Part shown: piece after piece, positions 411 through 8,684 of the stretch
Layout: every line of letters starts with the position of its first letter
How positions within the stretch are numbered: position 1 is the stretch's first letter
Assembly: GCF_900163545.1 (NCBI RefSeq)
Contig: NZ_FUHW01000037.1
Coordinates: forward strand, 1-64,000
DNA from: Arthrobacter rhombi
GTDB taxonomy: Bacteria > Actinomycetota > Actinomycetes > Actinomycetales > Micrococcaceae
Length of the DNA stretch: 64,000 nt
Reading direction: 5' to 3'
Notes under the pieces: model-generated
What the model was told of the DNA's origin: nothing
The model's database searches: none
Seen by the model: only the letters and a program-made list of their open reading frames with translations
Made by a program: the position numbers and the translations under genes

Positions 411-523
411 GGTGTCCTCCTCGACAGATCGTCCCCGACCCGTGGTGCTGCTCGTTTCGACACAGGCGCTTCGGGCTCTTCTTCCAGCCTACGACCCCGC
501 CGCCCCGGGGGAAACCGAGTAGC

Positions 524-1522
524 GTGGTCGGGGTGAATTCACCCAAAAACCCCGTCATCCACGTCAGTGCCGTCGTCCTGCGGAACTTCTCCGGGTCGGT
601 GCTCACCGTCCGCAAAGCAGGCACCGAACGGTTCATGCTCCCCGGCGGCAAACCCGAGGCGGGCGAAAACCCCGCCGAGACGGCACTGCGCGAATGTTCC
701 GAGGAGTTGGGGGTGGACCTGGATCCCGGGCGTTTACGCGAAGTCGGGGTTTTTCGCACCCGGGCCGCCAATGAGCCAGGACATGATGTCCAAGCCAACG
801 TCTTCGAGCACCCTGCCCTGGTTTCCGCCCGGCCCGCCTCCGAGATCGCCGAGCTTCGCTGGTTGGACCCGGCCGCCGCCCTCCTGCCGCCGGATCTGGC
901 TCCGCTGCTGTCCGAGCAGGTGCTTCCGGCACTGGGTGGCACCGGGGAGCGGGCGGCCCGACAGCTGACGGTCTTCACCGGCTCGAAGACCGGGCATGGC
1001 CACGACTACCTCGATGCTGCCAGCGTCTTGGGCACCCGGTTGGCCGAATGTGGTCTGGGTATCATCTACGGCGGAGGGCAGGTCGGGCTCATGGGGGTCC
1101 TCGCCGATGCTGCCATGGCGGCCGGCGGCTCCGTCACCGGGATCATGACTCAGGCCCTCGTAGATGGGGAGACCGCCCATACCGGGCTGACGTCTTTGGA
1201 AATCGTGGCCACGATGCATGAACGCAAGCAACGTATGGCAGATCTGGGTGACGGGTTCGTGGCCCTTCCCGGCGGCGCCGGTACGTTGGAGGAGTTCTTC
1301 GAGGCCTGGACCTGGCAGCATCTGGGCATCCACCGCAAACCGGTGGCGCTATTCAATGTCGACGGTTTTTGGGATCCCCTGCTGGCCATGGTCGACACCA
1401 TGGTCAGCCGCGGGTTCCTGGCCTCCTCCTACCGGGACACGTTGATCGTCAGTGACGACGCCGATGACCTGCTGGCGCAGCTGGACCGATGGGAACCGCC
1501 GGCCCCCAAATGGAGCAAATAG
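524..1522 (+). CDS. Nudix hydrolase fused to a LOG-family (lysine decarboxylase-like) phosphoribohydrolase
   Basis: Residues 10-135 form a Nudix domain with a complete Nudix box at 42-64 (GKPEAGE...RECSEELGV; all catalytic Glu and Gly present). Residues 147-325 form a LOG/TIGR00730 Rossmann domain with YGGGQVGLMG (182-191), MHERKQRM (231-238) and the diagnostic PGGAGTLEE (249-257). LOG enzymes release the base from nucleoside 5'-monophosphates (cytokinin activation or nucleotide salvage). Nudix enzymes split nucleoside diphosphate-X compounds. A fused protein could turn a nucleoside di/triphosphate into the monophosphate and then into free base plus ribose 5-phosphate; this is inference. The start is GTG at 524 or GTG at 533. 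Confidence 0.88.
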   Translation: MVGVNSPKNPVIHVSAVVLRNFSGSVLTVRKAGTERFMLPGGKPEAGENPAETALRECSEELGVDLDPGRLREVGVFRTRAANEPGHDVQANVFEHPALVSARPASEIAELRWLDPAAALLPPDLAPLLSEQVLPALGGTGERAARQLTVFTGSKTGHGHDYLDAASVLGTRLAECGLGIIYGGGQVGLMGVLADAAMAAGGSVTGIMTQALVDGETAHTGLTSLEIVATMHERKQRMADLGDGFVALPGGAGTLEEFFEAWTWQHLGIHRKPVALFNVDGFWDPLLAMVDTMVSRGFLASSYRDTLIVSDDADDLLAQLDRWEPPAPKWSK

Positions 1523-5705: not shown

Positions 5706-7229
5706 TTAGCCGCCGTGGGTCTGCAGGAACTCGTACACCTCGGTTTCGTCGACCCCGGGAAAGGCCCCCGAGGGCATGGCCGCCAACAGGTGGGAGTTGG
5801 CCCGGGCCGCGGGCCAGGCCTGCCCGGCCCAAGAGCGGGCCAGGGCTTCGGGCGGCCGCTTGCAGCAGGACTCATCCGGGCAGCGTGACTTCGACCGCTC
5901 GGTGGTGTCGCGGCCACGGAACCACTTCACGTGTTCATAGGGGACACCAATGCTCAGCGAGTACATCCCCGAGGAGTGACGTTCGGTCCGGGCGGTGCAC
6001 CAGAAGGTTCCCGCCACGGTGTCGGTGTACTGCTCGAAGGCCCTGAACTTATCCGGCACGTCGAAGACCTCGCGGCTGGTCCAGTACCTGCAGATCGATT
6101 GCCCCTCGATGGCACCGGTGTGATCGGCAGGGAAGTTCACGTCGTCGTTCTCATACGCCTTATGCAGGATCCCCGACTCATGCACCTTTTGGAAGTGGCA
6201 GGTGATGTCCAGGTGCTCGGTGGCCAGGTTCGTGAAACGGTGGGCCGCCGACTCATAGGAAACCGCGTAGGCATCCCGCAGGTCCTCGATCGCCAACGAT
6301 TTGGACTTCTTGGCTTCCTCCAGGAACGCCACCGTGGTCTTCTGCGGCATCAGCAAGGCGGCCGCAAAGTAGTTGGTGTAGACCCGCTGGCGGAGGAACT
6401 CGCTGTAGTTTCGTGGTGCCTCATGACCCAAAACGTAGTGGCCCAGCGCCTGCAAAAGCACCGAACGGGCGTCATGGTCACTCTTCGTCCCCTGCACGAG
6501 ATAAATTCTGCGGTTCTTCAGATCCGTCACCGAACGCGTCGAATGCGGCAAATCACCCACGAAGTGCAGGCCGAATCCCAGATGCTCGGCGAGGTCGGCG
6601 GCGACGTGGTGGGACAACGGACCAGAGGTGTGCCCGACGGCGTCGAGCAGCCCCTGGGCCTGCTTCTCCAGCTCGGGGTAGTAGTTGTTGCATTCGCGCA
6701 TTTCGGTGCGGATCTCGGTATTCGCCCGACGGGCTTCCTCGGGAGTCGCCGCCTGCTCCTCAAGTCGCCGCTCGAGTTCATGCTGCAAACCGACCAGGGA
6801 TTCGAGGACATCCATCGGCAACCGCGAGGACACGCGCACCTTCGGCAGTCCCAGCGAACCGTAGAGCGGCCCCCGTTGCGCTTTTTCCAACTCGATTTCC
6901 AGTCCGGCCCGCCGACTCGGAGGCTCGGAACCGAGCAGGTCATCGACACCGGTTTCCAGGGCGGCAGCCAGCTGCCGCAGCAGCCCCACCTTGGGTTCGC
7001 GTTTGCCGTTCTCGATCAGACTCAGTTGCGAGGGGGCCACCGAGACCAATTCACCCAAACCGTCAAGGGTCAAGGACTTGCCCTTGCGCAGATGGCGTAT
7101 CCGCCGCCCCAGTGCGATGGCATCCATCTCCGCGTCGTCATCCGTCGAGGCAGCATCCGGGGTGTGTCCGCCGGGGGGCCGGTTCCATGTGGGAGTCGTC
7201 ACTTCTTGAGAATACCGCAAGAAGCGCAA
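5706..7229 (-). CDS. ramB: RamB-like XRE-family regulator of acetate/glyoxylate metabolism
   Basis: Up to 507 aa. An XRE helix-turn-helix (GRRIRHLRKGKSLTLDGLGE...SLIENGKREP) is followed by a central IrrE/ImmA-like region whose metallopeptidase motif is reduced to LGHYVLGHE. A Cys-rich C-terminal segment contains CPDESCCKRPPEA. This order is that of RamB/ScfR (short-chain fatty acyl regulators) in Corynebacterium and Mycobacterium, which control aceA, aceB and acetate activation. It is divergent from aceA, as expected for a local regulator. The start is uncertain: TTG 7229, GTG 7202 or ATG 7127 (directly before the HTH); none has a strong ribosome site. Confidence 0.88.
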   Translation of the reverse strand: MRFLRYSQEVTTPTWNRPPGGHTPDAASTDDDAEMDAIALGRRIRHLRKGKSLTLDGLGELVSVAPSQLSLIENGKREPKVGLLRQLAAALETGVDDLLGSEPPSRRAGLEIELEKAQRGPLYGSLGLPKVRVSSRLPMDVLESLVGLQHELERRLEEQAATPEEARRANTEIRTEMRECNNYYPELEKQAQGLLDAVGHTSGPLSHHVAADLAEHLGFGLHFVGDLPHSTRSVTDLKNRRIYLVQGTKSDHDARSVLLQALGHYVLGHEAPRNYSEFLRQRVYTNYFAAALLMPQKTTVAFLEEAKKSKSLAIEDLRDAYAVSYESAAHRFTNLATEHLDITCHFQKVHESGILHKAYENDDVNFPADHTGAIEGQSICRYWTSREVFDVPDKFRAFEQYTDTVAGTFWCTARTERHSSGMYSLSIGVPYEHVKWFRGRDTTERSKSRCPDESCCKRPPEALARSWAGQAWPAARANSHLLAAMPSGAFPGVDETEVYEFLQTHGG

Positions 7230-7379
7230 ATCTTTCCACTAGAAACCCCTAGAAAACCTCTTGCATCTCACGAATAGTCGTCATTACGAAGAAAAACACG
7301 GAAACATCGACTACCGGCAGAGGCGCCGGACACGTCGTCGGATCCCCGGGACAGCCCGGAACGATTGAAGGAGAAGGCC
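7230..7379. promoter_or_regulatory. ramB/aceA divergent promoter region
   Basis: This 150-bp region separates the two starts. It contains the AT-rich stretch GCAAATCTTTCC (about 7225-7237) and a CTAG-centred repeat pair (CACTAGAAACC, CCCTAGAAAACC at about 7237-7257). The GCAAA/TTTGC element resembles part of the known RamB motif (ACTTTGCAAA in C. glutamicum), but the match is incomplete, so a RamB site here is only suggested. Confidence 0.35.
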
Positions 7380-8684
7380 ATGACGCAGAAGCAGAATTCC
7401 GCCGCAGAGCGCACACAGGCCCTGGAGATGGAGTGGAGCGCCAACCCCCGCTGGGAAGGCATCACCCGCGAATACACCGCAGCCGAGGTGATCCGCCTGC
7501 AGGGACGCGTCGTCGAAGAGAACACGTTGGCTCGCCGCGGTTCCGAAAAACTGTGGGACCAGCTCACGGCCGAAGCCAAAACCGGCGCCTACACCAACTC
7601 CCTGGGCGCCCTGACCGGCAACCAGGCGGTTCAGCAGGTCAAGGCAGGCCTGCGGGCCATCTACCTTTCCGGCTGGCAGGTCGCCGCCGACGCCAACCTC
7701 TCCGGCCAGACCTACCCCGACCAGTCGCTCTACCCGGCCAACTCGGTTCCGCAGGTAGTGCGCCGCATCAATAACGCCCTGCAGCGGGCCGACCAGATTG
7801 AGTTCGCCGAGGACATCCAGACCGTCGAGGATTGGCTGGTTCCGATCGTCGCCGACGCCGAGGCCGGCTTCGGTGGCCCGTTGAACGCCTACGAGCTGAT
7901 GAAGTCGATGATCACCGCCGGCGCCTCGGGGGTGCACTGGGAAGACCAGCTCGCCTCGGAAAAGAAGTGCGGTCACCTCGGTGGCAAGGTCCTCATCCCG
8001 ACCGGCCAGCACATCCGCACCCTCAATGCCGCCCGTTTGGCAGCCGACGTTTCGGATACCCCGAGCGTGATCATCGCCAGGACCGACGCCGAGGCAGCCA
8101 CCCTGATCACCTCGGATGTCGACGAGCGGGACGCAGAATTCGTCACCGGCGAGCGCACCGCCGAAGGCTTCTATAAGGTCCGCAACGGGATCGAACCCTG
8201 CATCGCCCGGGCCAAGGCCTACGCCCCGTACTCCGACCTCATCTGGATGGAGACCGGGACACCTGACCTGGAGATGGCCAAGAAGTTCGCCGAAGCGGTC
8301 AAGGCCGAGCACCCCGACCAGATGCTCGCCTATAACTGCTCCCCGTCGTTCAACTGGAAGAAGCACCTCGACGACGCCACGATCGCCAAGTTCCAGCGCG
8401 AACTCGGCGCCATGGGCTTCACGTTCCAGTTCATCACGCTGGCCGGGTTCCACGCCCTGAACCACTCGATGTTCGATCTGGCCTCCGGCTACGCCCAGAA
8501 CGGCATGAGCGCCTACGTCGAACTCCAAGAACGTGAATTCGCTTCCGAAGCGGCCGGCTACACCGCCACCAAGCACCAGCGCGAGGTCGGCACCGGCTAC
8601 TTCGACCAGATCGCTACCACCCTGAACCCCGAAGCATCCACCCTGGCTCTGGTGGGATCCACCGAAGCCGGACAGTTCCACTAG
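7380..8684 (+). CDS. aceA: isocitrate lyase
   Basis: 434 aa. The active-site signature KKCGHLGGK is at residues 195-203, with catalytic Cys197. NPRWEGITR near the N-terminus and [10 protein letters not shown] in the C-terminal half are family hallmarks. The enzyme cleaves isocitrate to succinate and glyoxylate, the first step of the glyoxylate shunt needed for growth on acetate and fatty acids. The ATG at 7380 is preceded by AAGGAGAAGGCC. It sits between its likely regulator ramB and aceB, so both shunt enzymes are contiguous. Confidence 0.97.

Follow-up and report, generated by a model that had tools for sequence, protein, structure and literature searches.

A Nudix–LOG fusion protein of Arthrobacter rhombi and the recurrent coupling of its two enzyme families suggest a two-step reaction on one nucleotide

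Introduction

The 64,000-nucleotide stretch of Arthrobacter rhombi DNA analyzed here (the window), from what we take to be a soil-type actinobacterium, encodes a genuine fusion of a Nudix hydrolase with a LOG phosphoribohydrolase. Our analyses demonstrated the fusion itself, intact active-site residues in both halves, their predicted folds and a recurrent genomic coupling of the two families. With a probability of roughly 0.6, the protein is a bifunctional enzyme that carries out two consecutive steps on one nucleotide, most likely to remove purine nucleotides that are unusual or damaged.

What bacterial LOGs act on in the cell is unsettled: the usual name is cytokinin-activating enzyme, though many carriers may lack a dedicated cytokinin pathway. 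The fusion provides a direct handle on this question, since a (d)NTP that is taken by the Nudix domain, and whose monophosphate is cleaved by the LOG domain, would probably be the true substrate; with the fused, paired and reverse-fused versions gathered below, this can be tested on several separate proteins. Both the architecture and the basic idea have appeared in print before. A 2021 review places LOGs in operons or fusions with phosphoanhydrases or Nudix hydrolases that might hydrolyze cytokinin nucleotides (PMC7913349), and cites Samanovic et al. (2015, Mol Cell 57:984) for the LOG–Nudix fusions and operons. Our literature search found no account of repeated origin, of a reverse-order fusion or of a biochemical test of any fusion, and the accessible portions of six further papers do not describe a bacterial LOG–Nudix fusion (PMC5389931, PMC4921024, PMC9503650, PMC7824862, PMC8234997, PMC8793217).

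Results

Layout of the fusion gene and its protein

The gene and its parts are as follows (window coordinates).

524..1522, + strand: Nudix–LOG fusion gene, 332 aa, GTG start, TAG stop, frame unbroken
507..514, + strand: candidate ribosome-binding run GGGGGAAA, picked out by eye, 9 bases 5′ of the GTG
563..904, + strand: Nudix domain, residues 14–127 (Pfam); the predicted fold of residues 1–141 is MutT-like
647..715, + strand: Nudix box GKPEAGENPAETALRECSEELGV, residues 42–64, kept in 13 of 13 intact fusions
935..961, + strand: interdomain linker, residues about 138–146, low model confidence (pLDDT below 50 at 140–143)
962..1504, + strand: type-I LOG (phosphoribohydrolase) domain, residues 147–327, by Pfam, NCBIfam, motif and structure match
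1214..1228, + strand: MHERK, residues 231–235, equivalent to Met96, His97, catalytic Arg99 and Lys100 of the Corynebacterium glutamicum LOG (CgLOG; roles from PMC4979012)
1268..1294, + strand: PGGAGTLEE, residues 249–257, phosphate-binding loop and catalytic Glu257 (roles from PMC4979012)
1301..1315, + strand: Glu260–Trp264, equivalent to CgLOG Glu125 and Trp129 (PMC4979012)

A first-pass annotation made from the sequence had placed a complete Nudix box and the LOG motif PGGAGTLEE in one 332-residue chain, and the frame, the profiles and the motifs all bear this out. About nine residues separate the two domains. The full-length AlphaFold model has a mean pLDDT of 80.7 and drops below 50 only at residues 1–6 and at 140–143 of the linker, while the Nudix half modeled alone reaches 88.5. 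The fusion is not an assembly accident, because both other genomes of the genus, and genomes of other genera, also encode full-length fusions.

The surroundings of the gene were also inspected. Some 390 bases upstream of the gene, positions 89–133 form a terminator-like inverted repeat whose 20-base arms match perfectly around a 5-base loop. Farther downstream, a regulator with a weak RamB match (5706–7229; 47.1 of 700 bits) is divergent from an isocitrate lyase gene (7365–8684). We considered a conserved operon context and rejected it: the YfcE-like phosphodiesterase, FAD oxidoreductase and xanthine permease genes that neighbor the fusion in the window are absent beside it at the loci examined outside the genus. 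As to a role in anti-phage defense, the one sign was a weak match of the Nudix half to a candidate PADLOC model (30.2 bits).

The Nudix half is nearest to MutT-type enzymes

Residues 14–127 match the Pfam NUDIX profile at 57.5 bits (cut-off 21.1). The Nudix box consensus is GX5EX7REUXEEXGU, and the box of the fusion fits it, its U residue following RE being Cys. Fold comparison of the model gave 3grn and 3hhj as matches (Z 17.3 each); together with E. coli MutT (3a6t) and the CTP pyrophosphohydrolase 2rrk, the range is Z 14.5–17.3 at 20–23% identity. In a profile search of solved structures, MutT/8-oxo-dGTPases and CTP pyrophosphohydrolase top the list, and by both profile and fold ADP-ribose enzymes rank below these NTP pyrophosphohydrolases. 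None of the NCBIfam Nudix equivalog cut-offs is reached by the fusion, those for MutT and NudG included; TIGR00586 (8-oxo-dGTP diphosphatase) scores 24.0 bits against 97.9. Judged by sequence and model, the Nudix half thus appears nearest to MutT-type NTP pyrophosphohydrolases.

This ranking bears on a recycling of ADP-ribose or other NAD-derived compounds, in which the Nudix domain would cut ADP-ribose to AMP and ribose 5-phosphate and the LOG domain would cut AMP to adenine and ribose 5-phosphate. ADP-ribose hydrolases are marked by a Pro 16 residues past the Nudix box. That Pro is found in eight of the 13 fusions; however, it is absent from five, and the window protein has Arg there. AMP is cleaved by CgLOG and other bacterial LOGs (PMC4979012, PMC7913349), and TRPM proteins carry an ADP-ribose-binding SLOG region (in TRPM2), some of them with a Nudix domain (NUDT9-H) in the same chain (PMC13143021). 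Set against these precedents, the order of the Nudix relatives leaves the ADP-ribose-like substrate suggested by the first-pass annotation disfavored, and we regard ADP-ribose recycling as improbable.

The LOG half keeps the catalytic and pocket residues of CgLOG

The C-terminal half matches Pfam Lysine_decarbox, the former name of the LOG domain, over residues 190–320 (146.9 bits, cut-off 27) and NCBIfam TIGR00730 over residues 148–321 (186.7 bits, cut-off 96.35). Its model has the Rossmann-type LOG fold and matches CgLOG (5its_A) with Z 31.5, an rmsd of 1.1 and 53% identity over 183 aligned residues; CgLOG catalytic Arg99 and Glu122 correspond to Arg234 and Glu257 of the fusion (roles from PMC4979012). 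All 13 intact same-order fusions keep GX5EX7REX2EE, PGGxGTxxE, MHxRK and the Glu125/Trp129 equivalents, and both fusions found later keep the three motifs. In CgLOG, these LOG residues bind AMP and catalyze its cleavage; a hold on the N6-prenyl group has also been proposed for them, with Glu125 and Trp129 taken to reach into the N6-substituent pocket of the partner subunit (PMC4979012). The cytokinin-LOG equivalog NF058542 (cytokinin riboside 5′-monophosphate phosphoribohydrolase) was not reached, at 134.1 bits against 300, and three other fused, reverse-fused or paired LOGs score 129.7–144 bits. Since no NCBIfam equivalog was reached by either half (cytokinin LOG, Nudix), family membership gives no substrate. 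Besides the fusion, the window's genome encodes another LOG-family protein (G000 C43:145409–145927; TIGR00730 145.5 bits), 29% identical to the LOG half of the fusion.

Activation of cytokinins would follow an identical two-step logic: the Nudix domain would make the monophosphate from isopentenyladenosine di- or triphosphate, or from another N6-modified adenine nucleotide, and the LOG domain would free the hormone base for plant or microbe signaling. This role has been proposed for LOG-linked Nudix enzymes (PMC7913349), and the CgLOG N6-prenyl residues Met96, His97, Lys100, Glu125 and Trp129 (PMC4979012) all have counterparts in the fusion. The prenyl-pocket residues are invariant or nearly so across LOGs generally; being common to them, they neither discriminate among substrates nor prove a cytokinin one. 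The gene content of the carriers argues against cytokinin activation, as do the low NF058542 score and the presence of the fusion on plasmids of human-associated Cutibacterium. Each of the 15 genomes tested, fusion carriers included, gave one weak, partial IPT-family match (22–30 bits). In the window's genome, this sole match (26.6 bits) is MiaA (272.2 bits, cut-off 148.65), and the IPT-family profile search found no dedicated adenylate isopentenyltransferase there. MiaA products leave tRNA as monophosphates, and cytokinin nucleotides derived from them therefore need no Nudix step. Because only MiaA and no adenylate isopentenyltransferase was found, clearing of unusual nucleotides is more likely than cytokinin making; the cytokinin-like adenines named in the first-pass annotation are weakened as substrates, and cytokinin activation is unlikely to be the role of the fusion.

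The fusion is narrow in distribution

How widespread the fusion is had been raised by the first-pass annotation, and the surveys answer that it is narrow. For the family, order, class and Pseudomonadota samples, the best 5–10 candidates per genome were scored, so that carrier counts are lower bounds. All three genomes of the window's genus carry the fusion, with full-length copies at 70–76% identity in Micrococcaceae bacterium RIT 802 and MAG 50_S64; in other genera, identity falls to 50–60%. Among 295 genomes of the family, at least 70 match at E ≤ 1e-40, essentially through the type-I LOG, and at least 12, from three genera, encode full-length fusions. At least five of 396 genomes of the order reach E ≤ 1e-74; all five of these are full length, and two further families account for two of them. 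Across 296 genomes of the class, the window's own was the sole full-length fusion among the matches listed.

Two genomes of genus g23 carry the fusion twice, the copies lying about 4 kb from each other and the second having a truncated Nudix half; in two other genomes of the genus the fusion has decayed. The loci are:

L138, 2999–4076 and 7501–8284: fusion copies
L139, 3222–4200 and about 7262–7987: fusion copies
L140, 3120–3863: further fusion locus
L145, 1971–2922: further fusion locus

Mobile elements were searched as well. The fusion query matches 194 of 72,556 plasmid records, and 12 of these matches span 80% or more of the query. Five are Cutibacterium plasmids with a complete fusion (54% identity), and the other seven are two-gene pairs lying side by side in Klebsiella, Acinetobacter and Sphingobium. 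The 194 records with LOG or Nudix homologues include 48 from Staphylococcus and 19 from Rhizobium and are mostly LOG among the matches listed; LOG may be a common plasmid passenger. Viral contigs gave no pattern match to the fusion, and phage matches are mostly LOG alone among the matches listed. Two 240-kb records named Acinetobacter phage MD-2021a (H16, CAKLQH020000003.1; H17, CAKLQF020000004.1) hold an adjacent LOG–Nudix pair whose identity to the query equals that of the A. baumannii pair, and these "phage" records may be host DNA.

Operon pairs and a reverse-order fusion couple the same two families

Fifty-nine of the at least 70 LOG-bearing genomes of the family have a Nudix of the fusion's subfamily (E ≤ 1e-10) and 11 do not; such a Nudix occurs in 47 of the 58 whose LOG is not fused. 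In five family genomes the Nudix gene lies directly upstream of the LOG gene on the same strand, and two others (G163, G251) hold decayed fusion copies. Only about 0.004 adjacencies are expected by chance, against the five seen among the at least 70 LOG-bearing genomes, a rough figure that assumes 46 genomes of 3 Mb, ignores relatedness and is a guide only, because adjacent pairs in close relatives are not independent events. The pairs and the reverse-order fusion were found at the following places.

G004, G122, G263 (family), same strand: Nudix then LOG, 149–160-base gaps
G159, G174 (family), same strand: Nudix then LOG, 4-base overlaps
Klebsiella plasmid or large replicon: LOG then Nudix, 8-base overlap
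A. baumannii plasmid or large replicon: LOG then Nudix, 14-base gap
A. johnsonii plasmid or large replicon: LOG then Nudix, 4-base overlap
Sphingobium plasmid or large replicon: Nudix then LOG
L143, 961–1986, − strand: reverse-order LOG–Nudix fusion, 341 aa, same family as the window

The reverse-order fusion, in genome G258, begins with LOG and continues with a Nudix of another subfamily, which shares 33% identity over 120 residues with the Nudix encoded 3′ of LOG on a plasmid of Bacillus badius. A different partner is suggested by MazG, another NTP pyrophosphohydrolase family. On a Priestia plasmid (L162, 3581–3898 and 4001–4582) a MazG-like gene stands divergent beside LOG, and B. subtilis yvdC–yvdD is probably a pair of the MazG–LOG type; on the strength of this one plasmid and that pair, a MazG-like gene may take the place of the Nudix partner without being homologous to it. 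YvdC is described as MazG-like in PMC3266247.

Linkage is nevertheless optional, not obligatory, and the coupling is recurrent but sporadic. The first-pass annotation had set unlinked genes in relatives against a joint reaction, and this is partly what we found: about 40 of the 47 non-fused family genomes with both genes have them far apart or on different contigs, yet operons and fusions recur. Two of 80 named LOG loci are fusions (RIT 802 and MAG 50_S64), and the fusion-type Nudix lies within the examined flank of only one of the other 78. Of 249 Pseudomonadota genomes, at least 96 match at E ≤ 1e-20; at least 12 show the Nudix half and at least 11 of those also LOG. The two genes are 1.6 kb apart in the genome on which this survey was centered, and among the candidates scored none of the ten other genomes with both genes has them linked. 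At a separate LOG locus, in Pseudomonas fluorescens PS862 (L130, 2245–5088), LOG overlaps a phosphoribosyltransferase-like gene and is adjoined by cysteine synthase-like and flavin reductase-like genes (labels by eye), an arrangement that resembles a small biosynthetic cluster.

Such scattered linkage could mean that the halves have no common substrate, two house-cleaning enzymes having been fused for co-expression or solubility. The genes are unlinked in most relatives, the 11 LOG-bearing family genomes manage without a fusion-type Nudix, and the fusion's gene neighbors differ between genera. However, a coupling that spans phyla, involves two Nudix subfamilies and appears in both orders, as operon and as fusion, is hard to explain in this way, and a union without shared chemistry seems rather unlikely.

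A single undisturbed fusion origin is ruled out under the models used

Before trees were built, rows that were duplicated, distant, very long or decayed were left out (10 of 83 LOG rows between the first and second tree, 17 of 78 LOG rows before the enlarged test, and one Nudix row). In the first LOG-half trees the fused rows fall into four groups, namely the window's genus, g3, g23 and Cutibacterium. The g3 fused LOG adjoins its own paired gene, and the Cutibacterium fused LOG lies beside a stand-alone Kocuria LOG (support 100/99). In AU tests, a single clade of fused LOG halves gave p = 2.6e-6 with 13 fused rows and 5.5e-4 with 15 fused rows after trimming of rows; for one clade of fused Nudix halves the values were 0.0068 and, in a later test, 0.008. 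A single undisturbed origin was thus ruled out for both halves under the models used. The LOG tree needs 4–6 changes, of which starred branches force three, and the Nudix tree needs 3–4, of which they force two, or one in the quick tree with more rows; the fused Nudix halves cluster more than the fused LOG halves. Repeated fusion, splitting and transfer are indistinguishable in detail, and the origin count is not fixed. Since fused halves are not monophyletic and operons occur in either order, the coupling is recurrent.

Discussion

We propose that the fusion would act in two steps. First, the N-terminal MutT-like Nudix domain, with Mg2+, would split a nucleoside triphosphate or diphosphate-X into a monophosphate and pyrophosphate. 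The type-I LOG domain at the C terminus would then, as a homodimer, cleave the monophosphate into the free base and ribose 5-phosphate, as its close homology to CgLOG suggests. CgLOG cleaves AMP (PMC4979012), as do bacterial LOGs more generally, whereas the rice LOG does not convert cytokinin di- or triphosphates (PMC7913349), and the B. pertussis LOG cleaves CMP and also GMP, the latter better than AMP (PMC6864091). Because a LOG needs a monophosphate, a pyrophosphohydrolase is the logical preceding step. The likeliest targets would be N6-substituted adenine or modified guanine nucleotides, whose removal would be irreversible, and such cleavage would stop the monophosphate from being re-phosphorylated into the pool. 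The two-step reaction of the first-pass annotation gains from two intact catalytic domains that fit consecutive nucleotide forms and from the recurrent coupling, reverse fusion included; the substrate, the order of the steps, channeling and dimerization are the parts of this scheme that we infer.

A broader reading can be put forward only tentatively. In many bacteria, type-I LOGs might serve chiefly as the second member of a nucleotide-sanitation pair and not as cytokinin makers. An NTP pyrophosphohydrolase (either of two Nudix subfamilies, possibly MazG in Bacillaceae) would yield an unusual purine monophosphate that LOG would destroy irreversibly, and evolution would have joined the two again and again, as operons and as fusions of either domain order.

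Several known systems resemble the fusion in part. The LOG–Nudix fusions and operons of PMC7913349 involve the same two families and the same idea of a Nudix enzyme supplying the monophosphate; in its accessible text, however, that review leaves the organisms and the domain order unnamed, and mentions neither a recurrent origin, nor a reverse-order fusion, nor Cutibacterium plasmids. CgLOG (Cg2612, PDB 5its/5zbl), the type-I LOG of C. glutamicum, has the same catalytic and pocket residues but, unlike the fusion, is without a Nudix domain. The MutT-type pyrophosphohydrolases have the intact Nudix box and the predicted fold in common with the Nudix half, but the four compared here (3grn, 3hhj, 3a6t, 2rrk) are of low identity to it and the fusion stays below the MutT and NudG equivalog cut-offs. 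The TRPM2 chanzyme also combines SLOG-type and Nudix (NUDT9-H) domains, and the LOG half of the fusion matches the TRPM2 SLOG at Z 12–13. By contrast, TRPM2 is an ion channel in which the two domains lie far apart, whereas the fusion keeps enzyme residues in both domains and has no room for a channel domain, its two soluble domains filling all 332 residues. Finally, an IPT–LOG fusion of Rhodococcus A21d2 (RFA21d2_02304) joins LOG to an enzyme of the preceding step (PMC4092121), as is proposed here. Its partner is an isopentenyltransferase and hence belongs to a cytokinin pathway, whereas the partner in the window is a predicted pyrophosphohydrolase.
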